A stretch of 64,000 nt of DNA from contig NZ_OBEH01000003.1 of the NCBI RefSeq assembly GCF_900215465.1, positions 496,001-560,000 on the forward strand, written 5' to 3'. The position numbers and the translations under genes are program-made. This DNA is from Flagellimonas pacifica. GTDB lineage: Bacteria > Bacteroidota > Bacteroidia > Flavobacteriales > Flavobacteriaceae. Shown here in pieces: positions 1,347 to 47,817 of this stretch (the first letter of the stretch is position 1; every line of letters starts with the position of its first letter). The notes under the pieces were generated by a model. The model made no database searches, was not told the DNA's origin, and worked only from the letters and a program-made list of their open reading frames with translations.

Positions 1347-1418
1347 GTATTGTAACAAATAATCTAGCGCCCTTTCCTTCAATTTACGTTAGATTTTTAG
1401 GTGGATTTTCCCGAACTT

Positions 1419-2402
1419 CACGTACCGGTTGCTAAGGAATCATTAACACGATTCTTAGATTAAACGCTGTACATAATTAAAAAAGTCAACTGTGAAACAT
1501 GAAATTGTAAGAAACATATTGATTTTTGGAATAGTTGTTTTATTGTCATTCCTTATTGATTATAAAAAATCTGTTAAGTATTGGTATGTGTTGCTACTCT
1601 TTTTTATAATTGGATTTGCAGATAACATATTAGGTACAATTACAATTGAATATCCTAACACACAACTAATAAAAACGCATAATTGGAATAATGCTTTAAA
1701 CTGTAATTGGAGTCCTAAAATTTATAGTATTGTTTTTGCTTTGCTCTTGTTAATTCCATTAAAAAAAATAATTACACCAGATGAAATTGGATTAAGATTA
1801 GGGCAAAACAAAAACTCAATTAAATTTTCTCTGACTGTAATAGTTTGCGTTTTTTTAACATCGTTGGTACCCGGACTATTAGGCAACAAAGGAGTATTTG
1901 ACACCAAAGCACTGTTGTTTATGGCAATTATGCCGGGATTAAATGAGGAATTAATTTATCGTGGATTTTTACTTGGATTTTTGAATAAGTTGTTCGACAA
2001 AAGATTTAAGTTTCTAGGAACAAATTTTGGATGGGGTGTAATTCTAACTTCAATCGTTTTTGGACTGCTTCATGGTTTTTATTTAACTGATACCTACCAA
2101 ATTGGATTCGATAATGTGCCGAATATTATATTAACTGGTGTTTATGGATTCGTTTTTGCGCTTATGAGAGAAAGAAGTGGAAGCTTGGTCTTTCCTATAA
2201 TTGCCCATAGTACAATTGATTTCTTTCACTTTCTATTTAGAATGATATAAACACCAAACACGACTATGCACAACATTTTGTATAAGTAATGGTACTCCAT
2301 GTGGTAAATATCAAGGTTTGTATCCCGCTCAAATTGTGTAATACTTTGATAGGAGAATGTGCCACGCAAACTGCCGCTTTTCATACAATTTACCGATAAG
2401 TG
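1419..2402 (+). mobile_element. Gene cassette 1 (CPBP protease cargo)
   Basis: The unit runs between an imperfect left terminal repeat CACGTACCGG (1419-1428) and a right repeat CCGATAAGTG (2393-2402). The left end folds as CTAAGGAATC/GATTC-TTAG (1432-1458) around the loop ATTAACAC, followed by TTAAACG (1460-1466). The right end is a long imperfect hairpin with arms TTGTAT (2278-2283) and ATACAA (2383-2388) and inner arms TATCAA (2309-2314) and TTGATA (2346-2351). No recombinase is encoded. The sequence left of it (from 1391, GATTTTTAGGTGGATTTT) resembles the flank of cassette 4. The sequence immediately to the right is a broken purB 3' end. Boundaries are inferred from comparing the four copies in this window. 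Confidence 0.6.
1492..2250 (+). CDS. CPBP-family intramembrane glutamic endopeptidase
   Basis: The product of 252 residues is rich in hydrophobic segments (about six to eight predicted by eye). It carries the CPBP (Abi/Rce1) protease signature: motif 1 EELIYR with Glu152, Glu153 and Arg157, motif 2 FGLLHGF with His194, and motif 3 IAHSTIDFF with His239. Such proteins cleave within or next to the membrane; in bacteria some serve bacteriocin immunity or prenyl-protein-like processing, but the substrate here is unknown. The start chosen is GTG at 1492; no in-frame ATG gives a better N-terminus. It is the sole cargo of cassette 1, is visibly more AT-rich than purB or ndh, and has no co-oriented partner, so horizontal acquisition is likely. 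Confidence 0.85.
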   Translation: MKHEIVRNILIFGIVVLLSFLIDYKKSVKYWYVLLLFFIIGFADNILGTITIEYPNTQLIKTHNWNNALNCNWSPKIYSIVFALLLLIPLKKIITPDEIGLRLGQNKNSIKFSLTVIVCVFLTSLVPGLLGNKGVFDTKALLFMAIMPGLNEELIYRGFLLGFLNKLFDKRFKFLGTNFGWGVILTSIVFGLLHGFYLTDTYQIGFDNVPNIILTGVYGFVFALMRERSGSLVFPIIAHSTIDFFHFLFRMI

Positions 2403-2600
2403 CAATCCCAGATTTCACAATTCTTCGAATGTAAAAACTGCGTATTAATCCTCGTATAATTTGCTGGGGTTATTTGTTTGAGCTCCCCTTTAATAGCATC
2501 TGAAACCTCAAGTGTATCAATAAAATCAGCAATAGACTTTTGGGTTATTTTTTCGTTGGTTCGGGTTAAGCCCTTAAGGGCTTCGCAGAGATTGGGGTAA
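2403..2600 (-). pseudogene. Broken copy of the purB 3' end (remnant A)
   Basis: Read on the minus strand, this piece encodes a near match to the last roughly 50 residues of the intact PurB at 6659-8002, including LKGLTRTNEKITQKS and ITPANYT, and it continues into the same 3' untranslated sequence. It lacks the rest of the gene. A one-base deletion near the end removes the stop codon, so the frame reads NYTRINTQ instead of NYTGI-stop. Its left edge starts exactly at the right terminal repeat of cassette 1, and its right edge passes into a 97-base block shared with remnant B. It is best read as a scar of repeated integration or recombination at the purB 3' end. Confidence 0.85.
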
Positions 2601-2697
2601 TCTTTCGGTCTATTTTGGTAATAAAAGTCACTTCTACGAATTCATATTCTACATCCATCAGTTTGCATTGGATTTTTAAACCGAAAACCTGTAACTT
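2601..2697. repeat. 97-base junction block, copy A
   Basis: This block joins purB remnant A to the left end of cassette 2. It matches positions 4816-4912 with only two differences in 97 bases by direct reading, much closer than the two purB remnants match each other. I see no gene in it. A minus-strand reading frame runs through it into the purB-like frame, but it does not resemble PurB upstream of the junction. Confidence 0.85.
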
Positions 2698-2770
2698 CAC
2701 TTATCGGACGATATAACCCATTAAAACGAGATTATAGCTTAAACGTTATATCCAAGTAAGAAAATCCAAT

Positions 2771-3484
2771 ATGGCATATTCAAATAACATGTCAAGATTA
2801 GCTCGATTAACTTCGATTTTATTGAAGTTACAATCTAAACCTTTTGTATCGGTTAACGATTTAGCCGAACAGTTTGAAGTAAGCAAAAGAACGATTTATA
2901 GAGATTTAGATTCACTTGAACAATCAGGGACACCAATTATTCCCATTGCAGGAAAGGGATACTCTTTAATGGAAGGTTACAATATTCCTCCAGTTATGTT
3001 TACGGAATCAGAAGCAAATGCTATACTCTTTGGACAAAAAATAATAGCCAAAACAAAGGATGAGTCACTTGTTAATGAATTCAACAAGGCGACTGATAAG
3101 ATAAAATCTGTTCTTTTAAACATCCAAAAAGAAAAAACGGATTTTCTTGCAAACAGAACAATAATCGGAAAGAATTTGAAGGAAGAAAGGACAAGTAATT
3201 ACCTTTCTGAAATTCAAAAAGCATTGACGAATTTCCAACTACTAAAAATAGAATACAAAAAAAAAGACACTAAGACAACTACAAGTAGAGAAATTGAACC
3301 ATTTGCCATTTATTATAATCCTTCAGAAAATTGGATTCTGATTGCTTGGTGTCGATTGCGAAAAGATTATAGGAATTTTAGAATAGATAGAATTCAAAAA
3401 TTGAGTAACGAATGGCAACAATTTACACCTCATGAAATGCCGCTGGAAGAATATGTGGAAATTCAAAAGAAAAAGATTTTTTAA
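2771..3484 (+). CDS. YafY-type HTH/WYL transcriptional regulator
   Basis: The protein has 237 residues: an N-terminal HTH_11 winged helix (about residues 7-60, with VSVNDLAEQFEVSKRTIYRD) and a C-terminal WYL-type ligand-sensing domain (about 140-225). The WYL core is seen as EIEPFAIYYNPSENWILIAWC, shortened here to its recognisable parts, followed by RNFRIDRI. Regulators of this class normally control the adjacent gene, so the dehalogenase-like gene 158 bases downstream is the natural target. That gap contains a near-perfect palindrome overlapping a promoter. The first ATG is at 2771; an internal ATG at 2789 (MSRLARL) matches the usual family N-terminus and may be the true start. It is cargo of cassette 2. 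Confidence 0.85.
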   Translation: MAYSNNMSRLARLTSILLKLQSKPFVSVNDLAEQFEVSKRTIYRDLDSLEQSGTPIIPIAGKGYSLMEGYNIPPVMFTESEANAILFGQKIIAKTKDESLVNEFNKATDKIKSVLLNIQKEKTDFLANRTIIGKNLKEERTSNYLSEIQKALTNFQLLKIEYKKKDTKTTTSREIEPFAIYYNPSENWILIAWCRLRKDYRNFRIDRIQKLSNEWQQFTPHEMPLEEYVEIQKKKIF

Positions 3485-3490
3485 AACTCC

Positions 3491-3510
3491 TGTGACAAAG
3501 GGTTGACACA
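3491..3510. promoter_or_regulatory. Probable operator palindrome for the WYL regulator
   Basis: TGTGACAA (3491-3498) and TTGACACA (3503-3510) form an inverted repeat with one mismatch and a four-base spacer. It starts seven bases after the regulator's stop codon and ends ten bases before the -7 box of the next gene, so bound protein would cover the upstream promoter region. Position and symmetry suggest the binding site of the cassette's own regulator; that is inference. Confidence 0.5.
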
Positions 3511-3519
3511 AGACATACT

Positions 3520-3527
3520 TAATTTTG
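3520..3527 (+). promoter_or_regulatory. -7 promoter box for the dehalogenase gene
   Basis: TAATTTTG fits the Bacteroidota -7 consensus TAnnTTTG. It lies 115 bases before the start codon and just after the TTGACACA palindrome arm, so the dehalogenase can be transcribed separately from the regulator. Confidence 0.5.
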
Positions 3528-3642
3528 TAATTACTAACAACCCAAATAGGGAAGTTCGTGCATATAAAAACAATCTTCATAGGTGCACTAAACTTATGCA
3601 GAAGGTTATATACTGATTGCATCAATAATAAAATTACCCAAT

Positions 3643-4500
3643 ATGAAATCACAAAATAAGTCTTGGTTAGACAAAAATGAATATCCGTTCAAGTCTAATT
3701 ATTTTGATCTACCAATAGGAAAAATGCATTATGTTGACGAAGGTACAGGAGCTCCAATTGTATTTGTTCACGGAAATCCAGGTTGGTCGTATGAATTTAG
3801 AAAATCAATTAAAGAGCTTTCAAAAACTAACAGATGTATTGCAGCTGACCATATCGGTTTTGGATTATCAGATAAACCATTCGATTGGAATTATTTACCC
3901 AAAAATCACGCAGATAATTTCGAGAGATTCATCAATCACCTAAAACTGGATAAATTTGTTTTAGTAGTGAACGATTGGGGTGGGCCAATTGGATTATCAT
4001 ATGCAGTAAATAATCCTGAAAGGATAAAACATCTTATGATTACTAATACTTGGATGTGGTCAGTAAAAAATAATCCATCCAGTAAAAGATTCAGCAATTT
4101 TGCAGGTGGAATGATCGGACGTTTCTTGATTAAGAATTTCAATTTCTTTGGTAAGGTAATAATCAAAAACTGTTTAGGAAATAAAAAGTATTTTGACCCA
4201 GCTATTTACAAACATCTTGAAAAACCAAATGATAGAAAAGGTTGTTGGACTTTCCCAAAACAAATAGTTGAATCTGATGATTGGGTACATAGTCTATGGC
4301 AAAAACGTAATAATATACGAGATTTACCAAAATCATTCATCTGGGGTATGAAGGACTTTGCGTTTAGTGAGAAAGACCTTAAAACTTGGATTGAAGAATT
4401 TAAACCTGAAACAGTAATAAAATTGGATGATGTAGGACATTATCCATACGAAGAAGCCACAAGCATATTTAATGAACAATTAAAAAATACCAGCACATAA
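3643..4500 (+). CDS. Haloalkane dehalogenase-like alpha/beta hydrolase
   Basis: This is a 285-residue alpha/beta hydrolase of the dehalogenase branch. The nucleophile elbow reads VVNDWGGPIGL, placing an aspartate (Asp111) where serine hydrolases have serine, with Trp112 following as a halide ligand. The oxyanion region is VFVHGNPGWSYEFR. The catalytic acid is probably Asp238 in WGMKDFAF and the base His266 in DVGHYPYEE. The NTWMWS stretch after the elbow resembles the third subfamily of haloalkane dehalogenases. The predicted reaction is hydrolysis of a carbon-halogen bond in the cytoplasm; the natural substrate is unknown. It is the second gene of cassette 2, probably controlled by the WYL regulator through the palindrome upstream. 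A haloacetate dehalogenase or epoxide hydrolase is less likely. Confidence 0.8.
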   Translation: MKSQNKSWLDKNEYPFKSNYFDLPIGKMHYVDEGTGAPIVFVHGNPGWSYEFRKSIKELSKTNRCIAADHIGFGLSDKPFDWNYLPKNHADNFERFINHLKLDKFVLVVNDWGGPIGLSYAVNNPERIKHLMITNTWMWSVKNNPSSKRFSNFAGGMIGRFLIKNFNFFGKVIIKNCLGNKKYFDPAIYKHLEKPNDRKGCWTFPKQIVESDDWVHSLWQKRNNIRDLPKSFIWGMKDFAFSEKDLKTWIEEFKPETVIKLDDVGHYPYEEATSIFNEQLKNTST

Positions 4501-4618
4501 CAATGTATACAGAAAATAGGTTAGATGGCAGTAAATTCAAGGAGTGTAGCCTCCACTTCAATTTTGCAACAGTTTGAAGCCCGTAATCGCCTATCTGCCA
4601 GATATTCACCAATAAGTG

Positions 4619-4815
4619 CAGCCTCAAATTTCACAATTACTCGAATGTGAAAACTGCATATTAAATCCCGTATAATTCGCTGGGGTTATTTGCTTAAGCT
4701 CGCTTTTTATTGCATCTAAAACTTCAAATGAATCGATAAAATCTGCGATGGATTTCTGGGTGATTTTTCATTGGTACGGGTCAAGCCCTTATGGGCTTCG
4801 CAGGGATTGGGGTAA
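4619..4815 (-). pseudogene. Broken copy of the purB 3' end (remnant B)
   Basis: On the minus strand this encodes the last part of PurB again, with the 3' untranslated sequence attached. It differs from the intact gene and from remnant A at many positions (roughly 15 percent by eye). A one-base deletion near the stop (ACGGGATTTAAT in place of ACTGGGATTTAAT) destroys termination, and the upstream frame is also disturbed. Its left edge abuts the right terminal repeat of cassette 2, and its right edge enters the second copy of the 97-base block. Confidence 0.85.
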
Positions 4816-4912
4816 TCTTTCGGTCTATTTTGGTAATAAAAGTCACTTCTACGAATTCATATTTTACATCCATCAGTTTGCATTGGATTTTTAAACGGAA
4901 AACCTGTAACTT
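4816..4912. repeat. 97-base junction block, copy B
   Basis: This is the second copy of the block at 2601-2697, with two substitutions. It again sits between a purB remnant and the left end of a cassette, here cassette 3. The near identity suggests a recent duplication, or repeated use of the same donor sequence. The intact purB has no corresponding copy. Confidence 0.85.
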
Positions 4913-4985
4913 CACTTGTCGGTCGATATAACCCATTAAAACGAGATTATATCTTAAACGTAGTGTGTAAGCTGAACAAAGGCAA

Positions 4986-5555
4986 ATGAAATACGAAAAT
5001 GTTTGGAATATATATGAAGATTGGTTGCGTAATTTCATCACTTCAAAAGTTGATGATGTCGAAGATGTAAATGATATTTTACAGGAGGTAAGTGTGAAAC
5101 TATACGTATCATTGTTGGAGGAGAAAGAGATCAGAAATCCAAAAAATTGGTTGTTCCAAGTAACTCGTAATACAATCTCTGACTTTTATAGAAAAAAATA
5201 TCTTCGGAAGAATACGTACGAAATATCAAGTGATTTATCAGAACAGACTTGTATTTGCGACTTATCAGATTTTGTGATTAAAAACTACTTGCCGAAAAAA
5301 TACGCGGACACACTTTTCTTAAGTGAAATAGAACAATTGTCGCAAAAAGAAGTTGCCAAAACTTTAGGGATTTCACTAACGGCAACCAAATCTAGAATTC
5401 TGCGCGGAAGAAAAATGTTTAAAGAACTAATCGAAGATTGCCTTAATATTTCTTACAATAAAAAAGGACAGGCAATTGATTTTGAGTTAAAAAACTCTTG
5501 TAGTTTACCAAATGACATCAAAGAAGAAATGCAAAGATTGAATTTGGTGCTCTAA
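4986..5555 (+). CDS. sigZ: RNA polymerase sigma factor SigZ (ECF type)
   Basis: The protein has 189 residues with sigma-70 region 2 at about 5-70 (VEDVNDILQEVSVKLY, WLFQVTRNTISDFYRKK) and region 4 at about 105-150 (QKEVAKTLGISLTATKSRI). The C-terminal tail NISYNKKGQAIDFELKNSC is the short extension typical of the SigZ group rather than of SusCD-type ECF factors. It would redirect RNA polymerase to a small regulon. No anti-sigma gene is adjacent, so control probably works by another route. It is the first gene of cassette 3 and precedes a membrane hydroxylase by 49 bases, its likely target or partner. Mobile cassettes pairing a regulator with an enzyme are a shared theme of cassettes 2 and 3. 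Confidence 0.85.
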   Translation: MKYENVWNIYEDWLRNFITSKVDDVEDVNDILQEVSVKLYVSLLEEKEIRNPKNWLFQVTRNTISDFYRKKYLRKNTYEISSDLSEQTCICDLSDFVIKNYLPKKYADTLFLSEIEQLSQKEVAKTLGISLTATKSRILRGRKMFKELIEDCLNISYNKKGQAIDFELKNSCSLPNDIKEEMQRLNLVL

Positions 5556-5581
5556 TTTGCATCTTTTTCAGTGCTTCTCAC

Positions 5582-5602
5582 GACTACAGTAAAAAAGTAG
5601 TC
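5582..5602 (+). promoter_or_regulatory. Hairpin in front of the hydroxylase start codon
   Basis: GACTAC (5582-5587) and GTAGTC (5597-5602) form a perfect six-base inverted repeat with a nine-base AT-rich loop, ending two bases before the ATG at 5605. In RNA it would occupy the ribosome-binding region and could dampen translation of the second gene. It could also be a DNA operator; the sequence alone does not decide. Confidence 0.4.
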
Positions 5603-5604
5603 AA

Positions 5605-6522
5605 ATGAACTCAAAAAAAGTATTGTCATTAACAGCCGTTCCTGCATTATTAACTATTAGTATGGTGTTTGGGTATGTTGCAATTTTAGAAGATTGGAAT
5701 TTGCTCTTATGCTCATTTATTATCTTATTTTTTTCTTTTAGCTCTATTTATTTTTTAGAAAGAATTATTCCTTTAAATGAAAGTTGGAGGATCCATAAGG
5801 GAACAATCCTAACCGAAGTTCTTCACTTTAGCATATCTATTGGACTTTTTGATGCTATTGGTAAAACGGTGGCTCTATGGTTTGTTCTATTAATTCAAAG
5901 TAACTTTTTTGAAGTAAACCCTACTTGGAGCTGGTTGCCATTTTGGTTAATCTTTATAATAGCAAATATTGTTGGGGAATTCCTACCATACTTATATCAT
6001 CGTATTAGCCATAAAGGAAATGCAAATTCTGTTTTCAGTCTTTTTCTTTGGCAAGTACATTCAATTCACCACATTTCAGAACAATTAAATTGGTTTAAAA
6101 CAAATTGGATGCATCCGTTAAATATGTTGCTGAACACTTTTTTAAAAATTGCACCACTCTTATTACTTGGGTTTAGCGAGTCCATCATATTTCTTGTAGG
6201 CATTTTTCATATAATGGTTGCTTATCTATCCCATTCCAATATATTGGTAAAAACTGGCTTTTTAGATTACATCATTGTTACACCTAAAATCCACCATTTT
6301 CATCACAGTAAAAAAATGGATGAGGCAAAGAATTATGGAAATATAATTCCTTTTTGGGATTTGGTTTTTGGTACATTCTACAACAGGAATGGTTATGTAG
6401 AAAAGGTTGGTGTCAATAAGGCCTTTTACAAATATCCAGAAAAGACAAATTATATTAAACAAGTAGTATTTCCTTTTAAAGGGTATAAATATTGTTGCAA
6501 CAAAACCATTTCAAAAAATTAA
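5605..6522 (+). CDS. Sterol desaturase/fatty acid hydroxylase family membrane protein
   Basis: This is a 305-residue integral membrane protein with about five or six hydrophobic segments. It has the histidine clusters of the di-iron fatty acid hydroxylase superfamily: HRISH from residue 132, HSIHH from 152 and HHFHH from 230. These ligands bind two irons and support O2-dependent hydroxylation or desaturation of a lipid, sterol-like or carotenoid substrate in the membrane. The true substrate is not visible. It follows sigZ by 49 bases within cassette 3 and its start is preceded by a small hairpin. The C-terminal tail is basic and cytoplasmic. It has no homologue elsewhere in the window, and its AT-rich composition fits acquisition with the cassette. 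Confidence 0.85.
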   Translation: MNSKKVLSLTAVPALLTISMVFGYVAILEDWNLLLCSFIILFFSFSSIYFLERIIPLNESWRIHKGTILTEVLHFSISIGLFDAIGKTVALWFVLLIQSNFFEVNPTWSWLPFWLIFIIANIVGEFLPYLYHRISHKGNANSVFSLFLWQVHSIHHISEQLNWFKTNWMHPLNMLLNTFLKIAPLLLLGFSESIIFLVGIFHIMVAYLSHSNILVKTGFLDYIIVTPKIHHFHHSKKMDEAKNYGNIIPFWDLVFGTFYNRNGYVEKVGVNKAFYKYPEKTNYIKQVVFPFKGYKYCCNKTISKN

Positions 6523-6658
6523 AACAACATTGGTTTTGTGAAATTTAAAAGCAAATCTAAACTGAAAAAACAGTGTATGAAAATCCGCTACTTATTGTTC
6601 ACGAACCAGATAAGTGCAACCCCAAATTTTACAATTTCTCGAATGTAAAAACGGCGTA

Positions 6659-8002
6659 TTAAATCCCAGTATAATTTGCTGGGGTTATTTTTTTGAGTTC
6701 CTCTTTAATAGCAACTGAAACCGTTAATGTGTCAATAAAATCTGCGATGGATTTCTGGGTGATTTTTTCGTTGGTACGGGTCAATCCTTTTAGAGCTTCA
6801 TACGGATTTGGATAGGCTTCGCGCCTCAATATGGTCTGAATAGCCTCGGCCACAACGGCCCAATTGTTTTCCAAATCCTGTTCAAACTTTTCAGCATTCA
6901 ACACCAATTTGTTCAATCCTTTAAGGGTGGACAAAAAGGCCACTTGGGTATGTGCAAAAGGCACTCCTGCATTTCTGAGTACGGTACTGTCCGTTAGGTC
7001 GCGCTGTAATCTGGAAACAGGCAGTTTAGCCGATAAATGTTCAAAAATGGCATTGGCCAAACCTAAATTCCCTTCAGAATTCTCAAAATCAATTGGATTT
7101 ACCTTGTGGGGCATGGCAGATGAACCAACTTCACCTTTTTTGATTTTCTGTTTAAAATAATCCATGGAGATATAGGTCCAGATGTCTCGGTTCAAATCAA
7201 TATAGATGGTATTGATGCGCTTCAAGCAATCGAACAAGGCCGCCATATGGTCGTAATGTTCAATTTGTGTGGTGGGGAAGGAGTGATAAAGCCCTAATTT
7301 CTCTTGAACAAATTGTTGTCCAAAAGCTTTCCAATCAATAGCTGGGTATGCCACTTTGTGGGCATTGTAATTTCCGGTTGCTCCACCAAATTTGGCTGCA
7401 CTTGGAATGTCGTTCAATAAATTGAACTGCTCTTTTAATCGCTCCACAAAAACATCAATTTCCTTGCCCAAGCGTGTAGGGGAGGCTGGTTGTCCATGGG
7501 TGCGCGCCAGCATGGGAATGTCGGCCCATTCAGTTGCCAACGCCTTTAGTTTTTCATAAACCTCAAAGTAAAGCGGAACATAAACATCGTTCATGGCCTC
7601 TTTAATGGATAATGGAACAGCTGTATTGTTAATATCTTGGGAAGTCAATCCAAAATGGATGAACTCTTTGTATTTTTCCAATCCAAGCGCGTCAAACTTT
7701 TGTTTGATAAAGTATTCAACAGCTTTTACATCGTGGTTGGTGGTCTTTTCAATCTCTTTAATAGCAGTTGCATCCTCAGTAGAAAAATCTTGATAGATTT
7801 TCTGCAGATCAGCGAACAGAGCTGTATTAAAATCGGCCAGCTGTGGAAGCGGAATCTCGCAGAGGGCAATAAAATATTCAATTTCTACCTGTACACGGTA
7901 TTTTATTAGTGCCTCTTCTGAAAAATAATTACCTAAAGCTTCAGTTTTGTTGCGATACCTACCATCTATTGGAGAGATGGCGTTAAGTTGGTTTAAAGAC
8001 AT
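6659..8002 (-). CDS. purB: Adenylosuccinate lyase
   Basis: PurB splits adenylosuccinate to AMP and fumarate, and SAICAR to AICAR and fumarate, in purine synthesis. The 447-residue protein has the superfamily signature SSAMPHKVNPIDFEN (about residues 290-305), the catalytic histidine regions TTNHDVKAVEYF and RTHGQPASPTRLGKE, and a normal C-terminus. I chose ATG at 8002 (MSLNQLNAISPIDGRY), because the longer frame from 8026 would overlap the -7 promoter box at 8024-8031. Its 3' end is the target of the cassette island: two broken copies of the last 150 or so coding bases lie downstream at 2403-2600 and 4619-4815. The intact copy has a normal stop. Confidence 0.97.
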   Translation of the reverse strand: MSLNQLNAISPIDGRYRNKTEALGNYFSEEALIKYRVQVEIEYFIALCEIPLPQLADFNTALFADLQKIYQDFSTEDATAIKEIEKTTNHDVKAVEYFIKQKFDALGLEKYKEFIHFGLTSQDINNTAVPLSIKEAMNDVYVPLYFEVYEKLKALATEWADIPMLARTHGQPASPTRLGKEIDVFVERLKEQFNLLNDIPSAAKFGGATGNYNAHKVAYPAIDWKAFGQQFVQEKLGLYHSFPTTQIEHYDHMAALFDCLKRINTIYIDLNRDIWTYISMDYFKQKIKKGEVGSSAMPHKVNPIDFENSEGNLGLANAIFEHLSAKLPVSRLQRDLTDSTVLRNAGVPFAHTQVAFLSTLKGLNKLVLNAEKFEQDLENNWAVVAEAIQTILRREAYPNPYEALKGLTRTNEKITQKSIADFIDTLTVSVAIKEELKKITPANYTGI

Positions 8003-8023
8003 TGACCGTTTTTTTTGAAAGCG

Positions 8024-8031
8024 CAAAGATA
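8024..8031 (-). promoter_or_regulatory. -7 promoter box for purB
   Basis: Read on the minus strand this is TATCTTTG, a perfect TAnnTTTG box 22 bases before the ATG at 8002. It rules out the upstream ATG at 8026 as a start. Confidence 0.6.
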
Positions 8032-12602: not shown

Positions 12603-12642
12603 AGTTTTTTGTATTTTAGAAGACAACCAATTTTAAAAACAA

Positions 12643-13170
12643 ATGACTACACTACTTTACATTTTAGCAGGAATTGTTTTATTGATTTTGATATTGGCGA
12701 TGATTGCGCCAAAAAGTTATGATGTTTCTAGATCCATAGAAATTGCAAAACCAAAGAATGAGGTTTTTGAAAACCTACGGTTCCTAAAAAACCAGGATGC
12801 TTGGTCTCCTTGGAACAAAAAAGACCCGAATATGGAAAAGAAGTTCACGGGAACCGATGGTGAAGTGGGAGCTACAAGCTATTGGCTTGGAAACAAGGAT
12901 GTAGGTGAAGGGGAGCAGGAACTTACCAAAATTGTGGATGGAGAACGTGTAGAATCGGAACTTCGGTTCTTAAAACCATGGAAATCTACCTCTGATGCTT
13001 ATCTGATTACTGAGGAAGTTAGTACGGGAAGTACCAAAGTTACATGGGGCTTTTCTGGAAAGAATAAATTCCCGACCAGTATTTTTATGTTGTTCATGAA
13101 TATGGACAAAGCTGTTGGTGGGGATTTTGAAGAAGGATTGGCTAGTTTAAAAGAATTACTAGAGAAATAG
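12643..13170 (+). CDS. Membrane-anchored SRPBCC (START-like) domain protein
   Basis: The 175-residue protein starts with a single N-terminal transmembrane helix (LLYILAGIVLLILILAMIA, about residues 4-22). A polyketide-cyclase/SRPBCC domain follows, visible as YDVSRSIEIAKPKNEVFENL and WSPWNKKDPNMEKKF near its start and EGLASLKELLEK at its end. The fold binds hydrophobic ligands; no enzymatic residues can be assigned. Members are common in Flavobacteriaceae next to VOC-family genes, as here: the next gene starts two bases after the stop. The pair is probably one transcript. Confidence 0.8.
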   Translation: MTTLLYILAGIVLLILILAMIAPKSYDVSRSIEIAKPKNEVFENLRFLKNQDAWSPWNKKDPNMEKKFTGTDGEVGATSYWLGNKDVGEGEQELTKIVDGERVESELRFLKPWKSTSDAYLITEEVSTGSTKVTWGFSGKNKFPTSIFMLFMNMDKAVGGDFEEGLASLKELLEK

Positions 13171-13172
13171 CT

Positions 13173-13550
13173 ATGGAACAAAATATGGTAAGCTGGTTTG
13201 AGATTCCGGTTTCGGATATGAATCGAGCCAAAGCTTTTTATGATACAGTTTTTCAAATTGAAATTCAAGTACAGAATTTTGAAGGTACTTTGATGGGGTG
13301 GTTCCCTTGGGCTGAAGGAAAGCCTGGAGCCAACGGTTCCCTCATTCAACATGAAAGTTATAAACCTAGCGGCACAGAGGGAGTACTTATCTATTTTGCC
13401 AGTTCTGATGTGCAAAATGAAATGGATAGGGTGGAAGCTGCTGGCGGCAAAATACTAAAACCTAAAACACAGATCAGTCCAGAAGTGGGTTATATGGGAT
13501 TGTTCTTGGATTCAGAAGGTAATCGAATTGCATTACATTCTAGGGTGTGA
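13173..13550 (+). CDS. VOC-family (glyoxalase-like) protein
   Basis: The protein has 125 residues, the length of a single VOC module pair. It begins VSWFEIPVSDMNRAKAFYD, a classic first beta-alpha-beta unit, and ends with YMGLFLDSEGNRIALHS, where the metal-site glutamate of glyoxalase I is replaced in many relatives. Such small VOC proteins include glyoxalases, dioxygenase-like enzymes and resistance proteins; the substrate cannot be told. It starts two bases after the SRPBCC gene and ends exactly one base before the convergent amylase gene stop. Confidence 0.85.
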   Translation: MEQNMVSWFEIPVSDMNRAKAFYDTVFQIEIQVQNFEGTLMGWFPWAEGKPGANGSLIQHESYKPSGTEGVLIYFASSDVQNEMDRVEAAGGKILKPKTQISPEVGYMGLFLDSEGNRIALHSRV

Positions 13551-15236
13551 TCATTCCACCAACTCCAACAGTGCAATATCAAATTCGTTGTCCAAAATCA
13601 CCTTGCCTTTATTGACCATGACCTCGGTTTCGGAATAGGTGTCGTACAATTTAGTGCCATCACCAAAAAATCCCTTTACCCAAAGGGATTTTTTACCTTT
13701 AGGTAAATCCAAGCCAACCACGACTTTGTCCTTGTAATCTCCATTGACATAGGTTCTGGAGAAAACATAGGGAGATTTAGCCAATCTTTTATGCCTTCCT
13801 GCGCCAACAGCAGGATGATCTCGTCTAAACTGTCCCAACTTTTGCCAGTGCTTGTGAATTTTTTGAGTACGGGGCAGGCTATCTAGTTCTTTCCAGTTCA
13901 TAAAAGAACGCAAAGTGGCATCGCCCTCAGTTCCTTCAATGATCAAACTTCTTGCAGTTTCATCTCCATAATATACCTGTGAGGCTCCTGGTGTCAATAA
14001 GAGCACATTTGCGGTATAAAATGGCTTATTTCGCTCTTTGTCAAAAGGGCTCCCATCATCATGGGAGGTTAAATAGTTGAGAACGCTTTTGCCTTTTAAT
14101 TTGGTATTCAATAAACGATTGTATTTTTTGAAGATGCTTTGGTAATCCTTGTTCGCATCGTTCTTTAAATCAAAATTGATTAGGCTTTTGAAACCATATT
14201 CAAAGAAATCAACCTTTTTGTCTCCAAAATTGAATTCTCGACCACCAGAAATACCATAATTATAGACTTCCCCAACCATATAAAACGGGTTGTTGTCAAA
14301 AACATGATCAGGATTCTTTTTCTTCCAGGTGTCAAATGCATAGGTAGCTTCTTTGTAAAGATCGGTCCATGCATTTTCGTTTACGTGTTTTACGGTATCC
14401 ACTCTAAAACCATCTACACCAAAATCATTGATATAATCTGTCAACCATTTGATAATATAATATCTAGGTGCTCTTGGGTAACCTGTACGTTCAAAGAAAA
14501 GCTGGAGCTCATCAAGCTCTTGGCTCAATCTACCTTCCTCCTTCCATTTTGCTAGCAAAGCATCAGGTAGTTCCACCGGTTCGTCTGATTCAGTTAGAAT
14601 ATCAGGAAGGTTTTCCACCAAGGTACAAGCTGTGGTATTTTCGTAGCTAGTGAACTCACATTTAGGGTTCGTCCTCACCCATTCTTCTGGCCAAACAGGG
14701 TCTTTTTCAGTCACAGGCCCTGTATGGTTTAAAACTACATCCAATAAAATTCGAATACCTTTGGAATGTGCGGTTTTGACCAATTTTCCCAAATCTTTCT
14801 TTGTGCCAAAATTGGGATCAATCGCTGTCCAATCCTTGGCCCAATACCCATGATATCCGTAGGTGTTTCCTGTACCTTCGTTTGTGGCCCCGTGAATTTG
14901 CTCAACCACAGGAGTAAACCAAATAGCATTGATTCCAAGATCAGTAAAGTAACCTTCTTCAATTTTTTGGGTTATCCCTTCAATATCCCCTCCTTCAAAA
15001 CCTCTAAGAATAGCTGTTTCCTCTATCCTTTCAAAATTGATATCATTGTCAGGATTACCATTATTAAAACGGTCTGTTAAAAGAAAATAAATATTGGCTC
15101 CTTCCCAAACAAATGGAACTTCCTTTTTCTGAGGTGTTTCTTCAACTACTTTGGTGTCCTTTTTTGGAGATTTCTCTACCTTCTTACATCCAAAAAGACA
15201 TACCAACGTAATCATGACGATAAGTAGTTTTTTCAT
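13551..15236 (-). CDS. GH13 alpha-amylase-family lipoprotein
   Basis: The 561-residue protein starts with a lipoprotein signal ending in LVCLFGC. A (beta/alpha)8 GH13 domain follows with its four conserved regions: DVVLNHTGP, GFRVDTVKH with the aspartate nucleophile, GEVYNYG with the general acid glutamate, and YLTSHDDGSPF with the third acidic residue. A short C-terminal beta domain follows. It would hydrolyse alpha-1,4-glucans such as starch, glycogen or maltodextrin at the cell surface or in the periplasm. No SusC/SusD pair is adjacent, so it is not part of an obvious glucan utilisation locus. It ends next to the convergent VOC gene. Confidence 0.93.
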   Translation of the reverse strand: MKKLLIVMITLVCLFGCKKVEKSPKKDTKVVEETPQKKEVPFVWEGANIYFLLTDRFNNGNPDNDINFERIEETAILRGFEGGDIEGITQKIEEGYFTDLGINAIWFTPVVEQIHGATNEGTGNTYGYHGYWAKDWTAIDPNFGTKKDLGKLVKTAHSKGIRILLDVVLNHTGPVTEKDPVWPEEWVRTNPKCEFTSYENTTACTLVENLPDILTESDEPVELPDALLAKWKEEGRLSQELDELQLFFERTGYPRAPRYYIIKWLTDYINDFGVDGFRVDTVKHVNENAWTDLYKEATYAFDTWKKKNPDHVFDNNPFYMVGEVYNYGISGGREFNFGDKKVDFFEYGFKSLINFDLKNDANKDYQSIFKKYNRLLNTKLKGKSVLNYLTSHDDGSPFDKERNKPFYTANVLLLTPGASQVYYGDETARSLIIEGTEGDATLRSFMNWKELDSLPRTQKIHKHWQKLGQFRRDHPAVGAGRHKRLAKSPYVFSRTYVNGDYKDKVVVGLDLPKGKKSLWVKGFFGDGTKLYDTYSETEVMVNKGKVILDNEFDIALLELVE

Positions 15237-33504: not shown

Positions 33505-34364
33505 CACTTATCGTTCCGTGTATGGACAGTAGGGCAGATTCGAAGCACTTCACTTTCGGTTTACCACTAAGCCAAAACAAACGTTTTTACCTTTAATTTT
33601 CTATTTGTTAAACGTCAAAACTTTGTTTTGGCGTTGCCTGCTCAAAGAACAGAACTTTCAATTTATCACTAAACGCCCTATTGGCTATACACCTTGTTGT
33701 AGCACGTTTTTTTCTTTTTACATTCCATCTTCGCGGTCAGAAAGCCAATCCACGTATTTAGCTTTAAGTCTGTCTCTTTTTTCGGTCGAGTCAACAATCA
33801 CATCAACTCCACCCTCATAAGGTGCAATGACACATTTTTTTGACGGACTGACAAACATTGCTCTTATTTCATCATCAGCAATAGCTTTGAGTATTTCGTT
33901 TCTGCTTCCGTTTTTCCAACTTTCAGTTTTCACATAAATGTCAAAATACGTTTCGTCTTCATATTCCTCTGGTCTTTCTTTTTGCAAATCAATTCTCAAG
34001 ACCTTTTGAAATTCTCCAAAGTCGGTTAACTCTTTATAATTGTCATTAGTTGAATCCCACCTGTAGAGTCCGAATGATATTGCTACTTCCGATTCTTCTC
34101 CAATCAGGTCGTTAATCAATTGGTTTTGTCGGTCAAGTATGATTTTATACTCGTCTTCATTTTCAGCGTATCTTTTTGATTCAGGAAGACTATGAATTCT
34201 AAACCACCTGTCAGGATATACCATTTTCAATTCGTGATTGATTGGCAACGATTCTTTGTATTCCTTATTCCAATAGTCTATGAATTCGCTTTCTGTCATT
34301 TCTTTAATGTGCTACAACGTTTAAGATATCGCTCGTTTTAATGAGCTATATCGCCCGATAAGTG
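33505..34364 (-). mobile_element. Gene cassette 4 (DUF3885-like cargo, opposite strand)
   Basis: Read on the minus strand, the unit begins with CACTTATCGG (34364-34355) and ends with CGATAAGTG (33513-33505). The left-end hairpin is the clearest of the family: GATAT and GCTC pair with GAGC and ATATC around the loop ATTAAAAC (34325-34352), followed by TTAAACG (34324-34318). The right end has arms GTGTAT and TAGGGC matched by GCCCTA and ATACAC. GTTGTAGCAC (33696-33705) and GTGCTACAAC (34309-34318) flank the gene itself as a perfect ten-base inverted pair. No recombinase and no purB sequence are present here, so the family is not tied to purB. Confidence 0.65.
33718..34299 (-). CDS. DUF3885-like protein
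   Basis: The 193-residue soluble protein contains PDRWFRIHSLPESKRYAENE (about residues 29-48), the recognisable block of the DUF3885 family. EEYKIILDRQN-like text follows (here DEYKIILDRQNQLIND), and a C-terminal block CVIAPYEGGVDVIVDS. It has no signal peptide or membrane segment. The function is unknown; the family is scattered in Firmicutes and Bacteroidota, consistent with mobility. It is the only gene of cassette 4, in an otherwise plus-strand neighbourhood between DUF6495 and hisS. Ten-base inverted repeats lie directly outside its start and stop. Confidence 0.7.
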   Translation of the reverse strand: MTESEFIDYWNKEYKESLPINHELKMVYPDRWFRIHSLPESKRYAENEDEYKIILDRQNQLINDLIGEESEVAISFGLYRWDSTNDNYKELTDFGEFQKVLRIDLQKERPEEYEDETYFDIYVKTESWKNGSRNEILKAIADDEIRAMFVSPSKKCVIAPYEGGVDVIVDSTEKRDRLKAKYVDWLSDREDGM

Positions 34365-47749: not shown

Positions 47750-47817
47750 TTTATAATTTTTTATTGTTTAACAAGATCAACTTTCACGAGTTTCGTCAGA
47801 GGTTAATTTTGCGATTG

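Follow-up and report, generated by a model that had tools for sequence, protein, structure and literature searches.

How did three units with common ends and different genes come to stand in tandem behind purB, where no recombinase is encoded? The question is posed by a window of 64,000 nucleotides (nt), the whole stretch of DNA that was analysed, which comprises positions 496001-560000 of contig C8 (NZ_OBEH01000003.1) in the genome of Flagellimonas pacifica; where no contig is named, coordinates are those of the window. The units are very probably integron gene cassettes that were inserted singly into a dispersed docking site, a hairpin referred to here as H, with the recombinase encoded elsewhere in the genome. 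This reading covers the entry of cassettes into H, and not the spread of H itself nor the origin of the purB-fragment spacers that lie between the units.

Boundaries of the units

A preliminary description had placed the three units at 1419-2402, 2698-4618 and 4913-6616, and comparison of the copies bore out three tandem units with both ends in common at these places. A fourth was found on the minus strand at 33505-34364 and four further copies lie elsewhere in the same genome (C5:237.8k, C5:278.4k, C5:603.5k and C8:92.6k). The end sequence CACTTATCGG, with at most one mismatch, occurs eight times in the window, seven times at unit ends and once inside purB, against 2.1 occurrences expected and never more than five in 100 shuffles. 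The pattern ATTAAMACN{5,20}TTAAACG gave eight matches in the genome and one for the reversed control.

The same comparison divides each unit into a target hairpin, H, on the outside and a cassette on the inside, with the product form TTAAACG^TTNNNN...cassette...ACCG^ATAAGTG, where ^ marks the insertion point; a cassette starts at G^TTNNNN and ends at ...ACCG^ATAAGTG. CACTTATCGG and CCGATAAGTG contain the two halves of the target hairpin; the unit ends first quoted exceed the cassettes proper and the true recombination boundaries lie further in. Cassettes u1 (1467-2395), u2 (2746-4611) and u3 (4961-6609) are on the plus strand and u4 (33512-34317) is on the minus strand. The left halves of their hairpins are H1 at 1419-1466, H2 at 2698-2745 and H3 at 4913-4960, all plus, and H4 at 34318-34364, minus, with the stem GATATAGCTC/GAGCGATATC. 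The right half, ATAAGTG, follows u1 at 2396-2402 and u2 from 4612; that of H3 lies at 6610-6616 (plus), about 42 nt past the purB stop, and that of H4 at 33505-33511 (minus). There are departures from the rule: u1 and u3 show start variants, u1, u2 and u3 deviate at one end or the other, and no right end can be recognised in the copy at C5:603.5k. The left end that had been reported as common to all is indeed shared, except that u1 differs in having CACGTACCGG with the loop ATTAACAC before TTAAACG.

The docking hairpin

The layout of H is CACTTATCG–stem–ATTAAAAC–stem–TTAAACG^ATAAGTG, with the cassette inserted at ^. It forms an inverted-repeat hairpin with an outer stem CACTTATCG/CGATAAGTG, an inner stem and the loop ATTAAAAC, and about 30 nt of conserved sequence lie beyond CACTTATCGG, on its outer side. 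Hairpins at the unit ends had been proposed before; energy folding of six ends gave no signal (best z-score -1.0), and it is the comparison of copies that supports paired arms. In an alignment of 21 sites 91.4% of the cells pair and two-sided changes occur in 5 of 18 pairs, all of them in the inner stem. Among 500 shuffles the count of two-sided pairs was matched in 7 and that of pair types in 32, while the paired cells or the covariation score were matched in none. A variant of H, CGTTATCG (GTTATCG), has ATAACG as its right half in all four loci in which both sides were seen (L106, L107, L112 and L118).

A covariance model of H, R1, was built with 69 positions and omits four units with extra inserts (L104, L106, L114 and L120) as well as units without a clear right end. 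With R1 at E<=1, H was detected in 66 of 70 genomes of the genus, with up to 21 matches per genome and 16 in F. pacifica itself, so that the ends recur throughout the genus and are not peculiar to this locus. At E<=1e-4 with strict filters the F. pacifica genome has 15 H, and among 195 other genomes of the order only G120, of the same family, had matches (four); H is nearly confined to this genus among the genomes sampled. A pattern search of 118 genomes matched 50, with rows outside the genus dropped as the counts there were like those of the reversed control; within the genus about 25 sites were judged true by eye, two of them empty.

The empty form of the site, TTAAACG^ATAAG, was predicted from filled copies and found by exact pattern in 2 of 71 genomes, and a third empty H, of the ATAACG variant, occurs in L107. 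Reading of 44 H matches by eye found all 15 of the F. pacifica genome filled and, of 29 in relatives, 11 empty and 18 filled; the latter are the best-scoring match per genome and empty sites score higher, so that the empty share is biased upwards. Four of the 11 empty sites have imperfect or shifted stems. In L104, L106, L114 and L120, and in two loci of the F. pacifica genome (L227 and L229), an extra insert (such as ...ACTGAACTTGTTTCAGT...) sits either within the outer arm or in the stretch from that arm to the loop, and gives the impression that a further small repeat has inserted itself.

Cassette ends

The layout R''-L''-L'-R' is that of integron attC sites, and the cassettes carry ends of this architecture. 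The arms were compared in 22 units whose ends are both given by H (7 from F. pacifica and 15 from relatives), by taking the longest prefix of a cassette start with a reverse complement within the final 300 nt. Complementarity between the start and the cassette's own R'' averaged 7.5 nt against 3.6 nt for mismatched pairs (0 of 20000 permutations), and at least 8 nt were complementary in 14 of 22 cassettes against 10 of 462 mismatched pairs, some of the 22 being related to each other and hence not fully independent. The pairing arm of the 14 clear cassettes starts 104-194 nt from the cassette end. After the R'' arm come boxes (for instance GTGTATAA, GGCTATAA or GTATAACCG) with a pairing partner on the opposite side, and the complementarity of L'' and L' boxes, in 20 of the 22 units, averaged 6.3 within a cassette against 4.9 with others (permutation 0/20000). 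Paired R and L boxes, as in attC sites, are thus present.

Within the window the pairing is clean in u4 (10 nt; start GTTGTAGCAC with GTGCTACAAC, attC-like site about 33512-33705) and weak in u2 (5 nt; about 4492-4611). The attC-like 3' site of u1 lies at about 2266-2395. Elsewhere, a stretch at G000:C16:283384-283533 resembles the attC end of u1 at 76%.

Recombinase platforms in the same genome

The preliminary description held that no integrase or transposase is encoded in or near the units. This stands for the neighbourhood, as PF00589 at E<=0.001 gave no match inside the window and its sole match on the window's contig is C8:11549, and fails for the genome, in which there are 19 such matches and two recombinase genes stand beside cassette arrays. 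The two best matches to TIGR02249, C12:247068 (375 amino acids, aa) and C13:30066 (272 aa), each adjoin such an array, as judged by eye, and the cassettes there have attC-like ends of the kind seen in the H units. The first cassette on C12 has GTTACAGGCA at its start and TGCCTGTAACACGGTGTATAA...CATACACAAGACC^GTTAGCG at its end, and nine attC-like sites, counted by eye, follow over about 9 kb. On C13 the first cassette, GTTGGCAAAC...GTTTGCCAACATTGTATAACCGC, is followed by at least three more attC-like sites, giving at least four in total by eye. A transposase pair, IS3-like by eye, breaks one cassette of the C12 array (L030, about 6760-8030), and a transposase-like open reading frame (ORF), also by eye, lies within a cassette of the C13 array (L031, about 12640-14260).

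A connection between the arrays and H comes from a relative, G024, whose contig C2 has two copies of an 866-bp cassette with 0 mismatches between them. One copy adjoins a 355-aa recombinase gene (L152, near C2:4087.7k) and reads TTATTTACGT^GTTACCACAT...ACACAAACCG^TTGTACAC; the other lies inside an H (L099, near C2:3450.8k) and reads CTTAAACG^TTACCACAT...ACACAAACCG^ATAAGTG. Together with the two platforms of the F. pacifica genome, this identical cassette in both settings supports the earlier suggestion of a system mobilised in trans, integron-like and with non-canonical sites. The attC ends of some other cassettes in H also resemble those of platforms: 88% over 122 nt between C8a and the C12 array of the same genome, 96% over 120 nt between G060b and L250, 91% over 141 nt between G026 and L146 and 90% over 137 nt between G024 and L305. 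Such matches, limited to the attC end, are consistent with different cargo carrying related recombination sites. A cassette of F. pacifica, C5b, is about 90% similar over 2.45 kb to L119 of G061.

It might be supposed instead that H and cassette move as one, H being the end of a non-autonomous transposon (HUH/Y1, REP-like or mobilised by another transposase in trans) and the cassette a passive cargo. The dispersal of H and the conserved 30 nt on its outer side would suit such an element, and so would the locus of u4, where 29 orthologous loci of relatives (19 with a readable gap; all 29 then searched) gave no match to H. As none of them has H, the hairpin there would have arrived with or before its cassette. 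A search for Y1_Tnp at E<=0.01 in the F. pacifica genome found one weak match, C5:110531, at 29.8 bits (cut-off 23); however, the nearest H listed on that contig is at C5:214435, more than 100 kb away, and the HUH/Y1 branch of the earlier suggestion gains little from it. Moreover, cassettes occur without H in the platform arrays, H occurs without cassettes, the crossover point is shared, and a transposon end does not predict the pairing of a cassette start with its own R''. Movement of H and cassette as one is therefore unlikely, and insertion of integron cassettes into H is preferred.

The recombinases and their relatives

Both recombinases pass the cut-off of NF040815 (229 bits for C12 and 238.5 for C13 against 220) and fail that of TIGR02249 (216 and 205.9 bits against 265). 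TIGR02249 was matched at residues 9-179 and 244-314 of C12 and 7-179 and 239-313 of C13, leaving the middle unmatched, and the alignment to IntI4 (2a3v) was likewise split. None of 28 aligned homologues has an insert of the size of the IntI insertion (the alignment leaves out L293, L298, L301, L313 and L314). A predicted structure with a mean pLDDT of 84.4 was compared by re-ranking of Foldseek hits, with a Z of 23.3 and a root mean square deviation (rmsd) of 9.6 over 255/266 residues to XerA (4a8e), and a Z of 19.0 and rmsd of 3.5 over 250/317 residues to IntI4. The gap in TIGR02249, the split match, the alignment and the structure agree that the recombinases, which are XerA-like, are without the IntI-specific insertion between the catalytic patches. 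Smyshlyaev et al. (PMC8138268) call this insertion essential for integron function and describe it as not fully conserved in the integron-like subgroup.

Relatives at E<=1e-45 were found in 44 of 118 genomes, F. pacifica included. In 19 of 30 recombinase loci read, two arms pair exactly over 9 nt and are accompanied by an L-box-like motif, a count that has no control and for which fixed L-box patterns also gave chance pairs. A scan of named genomes yielded at least 80 recombinase loci, mostly from Bacteroidota, and among the matches listed chains of at least three cassettes occurred at 13 of 80 loci against 5 of 400 resampled controls. The longest chains listed, in Maribacter caenipelagi and in Arundinibacter roseus, were of six cassettes each; that of M. 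caenipelagi starts 47 nt past the recombinase gene. As regards the fixed insertion point of an attI, the first cassette-like start was 47-50 nt past the gene in seven loci and, in six of Flagellimonas type, 102 nt upstream of it, and the site sequences differ between classes. Related recombinases, 55-56% over about 230 aa, were also noted in Acinetobacter (L295-L297), including the chromosome of A. portensis and the plasmid pJNE5-X3_NDM-1.

The cassettes might have been supplied by a canonical IntI integron, with the XerA-like genes as bystanders beside the arrays. The attC-like sites have the R''-L''-L'-R' layout that integrons show. PMC9892861 describes attC sites in a Polaribacter phage and the recombination of one of these with attI1 by IntI1. 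Integrons have also been reported from Bacteroidota, in general terms (PMC8618304, PMC9668308) and for the Bacteroidetes/Chlorobi group (PMC2426708). Yet the F. pacifica genome has no TIGR02249 match above the cut-off, and the XerA-like genes stand at a near-constant distance from the first cassettes in several species, so that a supply by IntI is quite unlikely and the XerA-like genes remain the favoured partners of the cassettes.

Proposed mechanism and points against it

Sequence comparison directly shows the junctions, both forms of H (empty and filled), cassette ends with attC-like architecture, two platforms within the F. pacifica genome and, in a relative, one identical cassette in both settings. 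On these observations a course of events can be proposed. The cassettes would be acted on in trans by a tyrosine recombinase like those of the C12 and C13 platforms, with its gene elsewhere in the genome. The attC-like end of a circular cassette would recombine with H after the G of TTAAACG^ATAAGTG, and cassettes would enter H sites one at a time to give TTAAACG^TTNNNN...ACCG^ATAAGTG. The XerA-like recombinases would catalyse the step, probably on folded single strands as IntI does, the cassettes would pass through a circle, and the process may still be occurring.

Several observations weigh against this account. The outer stem of H is without two-sided change in the aligned set, the GTTATCG variants are out of register there, and 18 of the 21 aligned H sequences are flanks that were joined by the analyst. 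The F. pacifica genome has no empty H among the 15 read; at the u4 locus H is present in none of the 29 relatives, and H too has come and gone. The arms of u1 and u3 are poor or degenerate. The pair of identical cassettes was found in one genome only (G024) among the loci compared, and the recombinases are without the insertion that the literature (PMC8138268) holds essential for integron function. Near the recombinases, chains of exactly two are only modestly enriched (29 of 80 listed loci vs 94 of 400 controls) and single arm pairs moderately so (38 of 60 loci, from the 80 listed, vs 427 of 1200 control windows). The case is built on sequence comparison.

The purB locus

The C-terminus of purB was found in 68 of 70 genomes, and 30 loci were read. 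In nine of them, including that of F. pacifica, a CACTTATCG-like right end lies 10-50 nt past the stop and is followed by attC-like ends that vary; two are doubtful and 19 have no right end. The left part of H was detected with R1 in the purB gap of G035, G022, G006 and the doubtful G009, weakly in the doubtful G058, and was not found in the gaps of G015, G026, G004 and G027; by locus, it was detected in L183, L184, L189 and L191 and weakly in L190. The ORFs in the gap behind purB vary in length and start among the regions read. In G042, where the purB gap is without a cassette right end, an empty H was observed at G042:C1:3590977 (L161, 327-395), some 1.1 kb away from purB.

The segments between the units, spacers B1 (2396-2745) and B2 (4612-4960), both on the plus strand, each consist of the right half of one H, a purB 3' fragment (about 2403-2605 in B1), a conserved flank and the left half of the next H. 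The purB fragments had not been noticed before. They are 81% alike over 165 nt and 84% alike to the intact purB of the same genome (by DNA match), which lies on the minus strand at 6659-8026 and flanks the hot spot, and the two junctions to the flank look alike. A comparable arrangement occurs in G042 (L107, 1500-4000), where three tandem H share a common spacer of about 150 nt, the first H being empty and the other two filled. In this locus and in the purB array of F. pacifica one left flank is common to the second and third H, and that of the first H is a different one.

The tandem could have arisen when imported purB ends recombined, homologously or illegitimately, with the cassettes being old and immobile. 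The divergence of the two fragments from purB and from each other, the same-looking junctions to the flank and the weak or degenerate arms of u1-u3 would agree with such an origin, which leaves unexplained why the cassette boundaries are the same at purB and u4 as in other genomes, and why the attC ends at the purB site vary among species. As an account of the units it is very unlikely, though it may still explain the spacers. Entry of cassettes into H accounts for the units. The pattern of left flanks in the two places fits with spacers acting as H-ended cassettes, though duplication followed by later exchange may also have produced it. H itself obeys the attC rule, the sequence on its right beginning with a stretch that pairs with the left arm of H, and the purB-fragment spacers may therefore be a second type of cassette that uses H as its attC.

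Relation to known systems

The system resembles integrons in having a tyrosine recombinase gene beside an array of small cassettes, R''/L''/L'/R' inverted repeats, a G^TT junction and a cassette start complementary to its own R''. It differs in that the recombinase is without the IntI-specific insertion and under the TIGR02249 cut-off; it works like an integron, though one defining feature of IntI fails. In XerCD/dif-type gene modules, dif-like 28-bp sites are bound by the chromosomal XerC and XerD. IS200/IS605-like elements and REP/RAYT systems also have hairpin ends and dispersed small repeats, whereas here there is no Y1 gene near the units, cassettes occur without H, and the junction and arm rules are integron-like.

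Clusters of attC sites lacking integrases (CALINs) and attG insertions are alike in that cassettes lie away from the recombinase, in sites that are neither the attI of a platform nor the attC of an array. Insertions at attG occur outside integrons (Loot et al. 2024, as cited in PMC11023631) and, by the description in PMC12444791, are spread over many Escherichia coli loci. Set against that description, the targets here belong to a single family of structured repeats, about 70 nt long and found empty and filled, and several species use H at the same orthologous position, behind purB. About 15 loci are involved here, yet they belong to a structured 69-position family that obeys an attC-like arm rule. 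The dispersed docking hairpins are, to our knowledge, new. A search of the literature by title and abstract, outside subscription papers and preprints, found no platform of this type described in Flavobacteriaceae. For Bacteroidetes a single complete integron, that of Salinibacter, is reported with IntegronFinder 2.0 (PMC9024848), and before it only integrases without cassettes.

Integron-type gene exchange is thus indicated as common in part of the Bacteroidota, a phylum in which a standard detector reports very few integrons. There the recombinase is without a part thought essential, which makes the need for the IntI insertion in cassette recombination directly testable, and a capture strategy of many marked loci instead of one array is pointed to. 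A broader picture can be offered tentatively, as one that could well be right or wrong. Bacteroidota may have an integron lineage of their own, run by XerA-like recombinases without the IntI insertion, which one genus has coupled to docking hairpins, so that 15-20 loci would serve as one-slot integrons. The purB spacers would be a possible second type of cassette with H as attC and the purB locus a mixed array of two families.

Cargo and other features

The cargo of the window is varied. Cassette u1 carries a CPBP/Rce1-like protease gene (1492-2250; PF02517) and u2 a WYL/helix-turn-helix regulator (2771-3484) with an alpha/beta hydrolase (3643-4500), while u3 carries a SigZ-like sigma factor (4986-5555) with a fatty acid hydroxylase (5605-6522; PF04116) and u4 a DUF3885 gene (33718-34299). 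Elsewhere AraC with AHSA1, and glyoxalase, YCII and sigma/DUF6596, were found. A DNA search with 1466-6609 in 69 relatives, in which four candidate places were scored per genome, returned among the matches listed purB fragments, H and parts of attC, the WYL gene at 69% over 763 nt in G027, and several shorter matches within u2. No row among those listed covers the cargo of u1 or u3, which speaks, as weak evidence given the four places scored, for cargo other than ordinary vertical genes. The eight unit loci gave only sub-gathering matches to Rfam. The one gathering-level match in the window, unrelated to the units, is an L19-Flavobacteria ribosomal protein leader at 47778-47805 on the minus strand.

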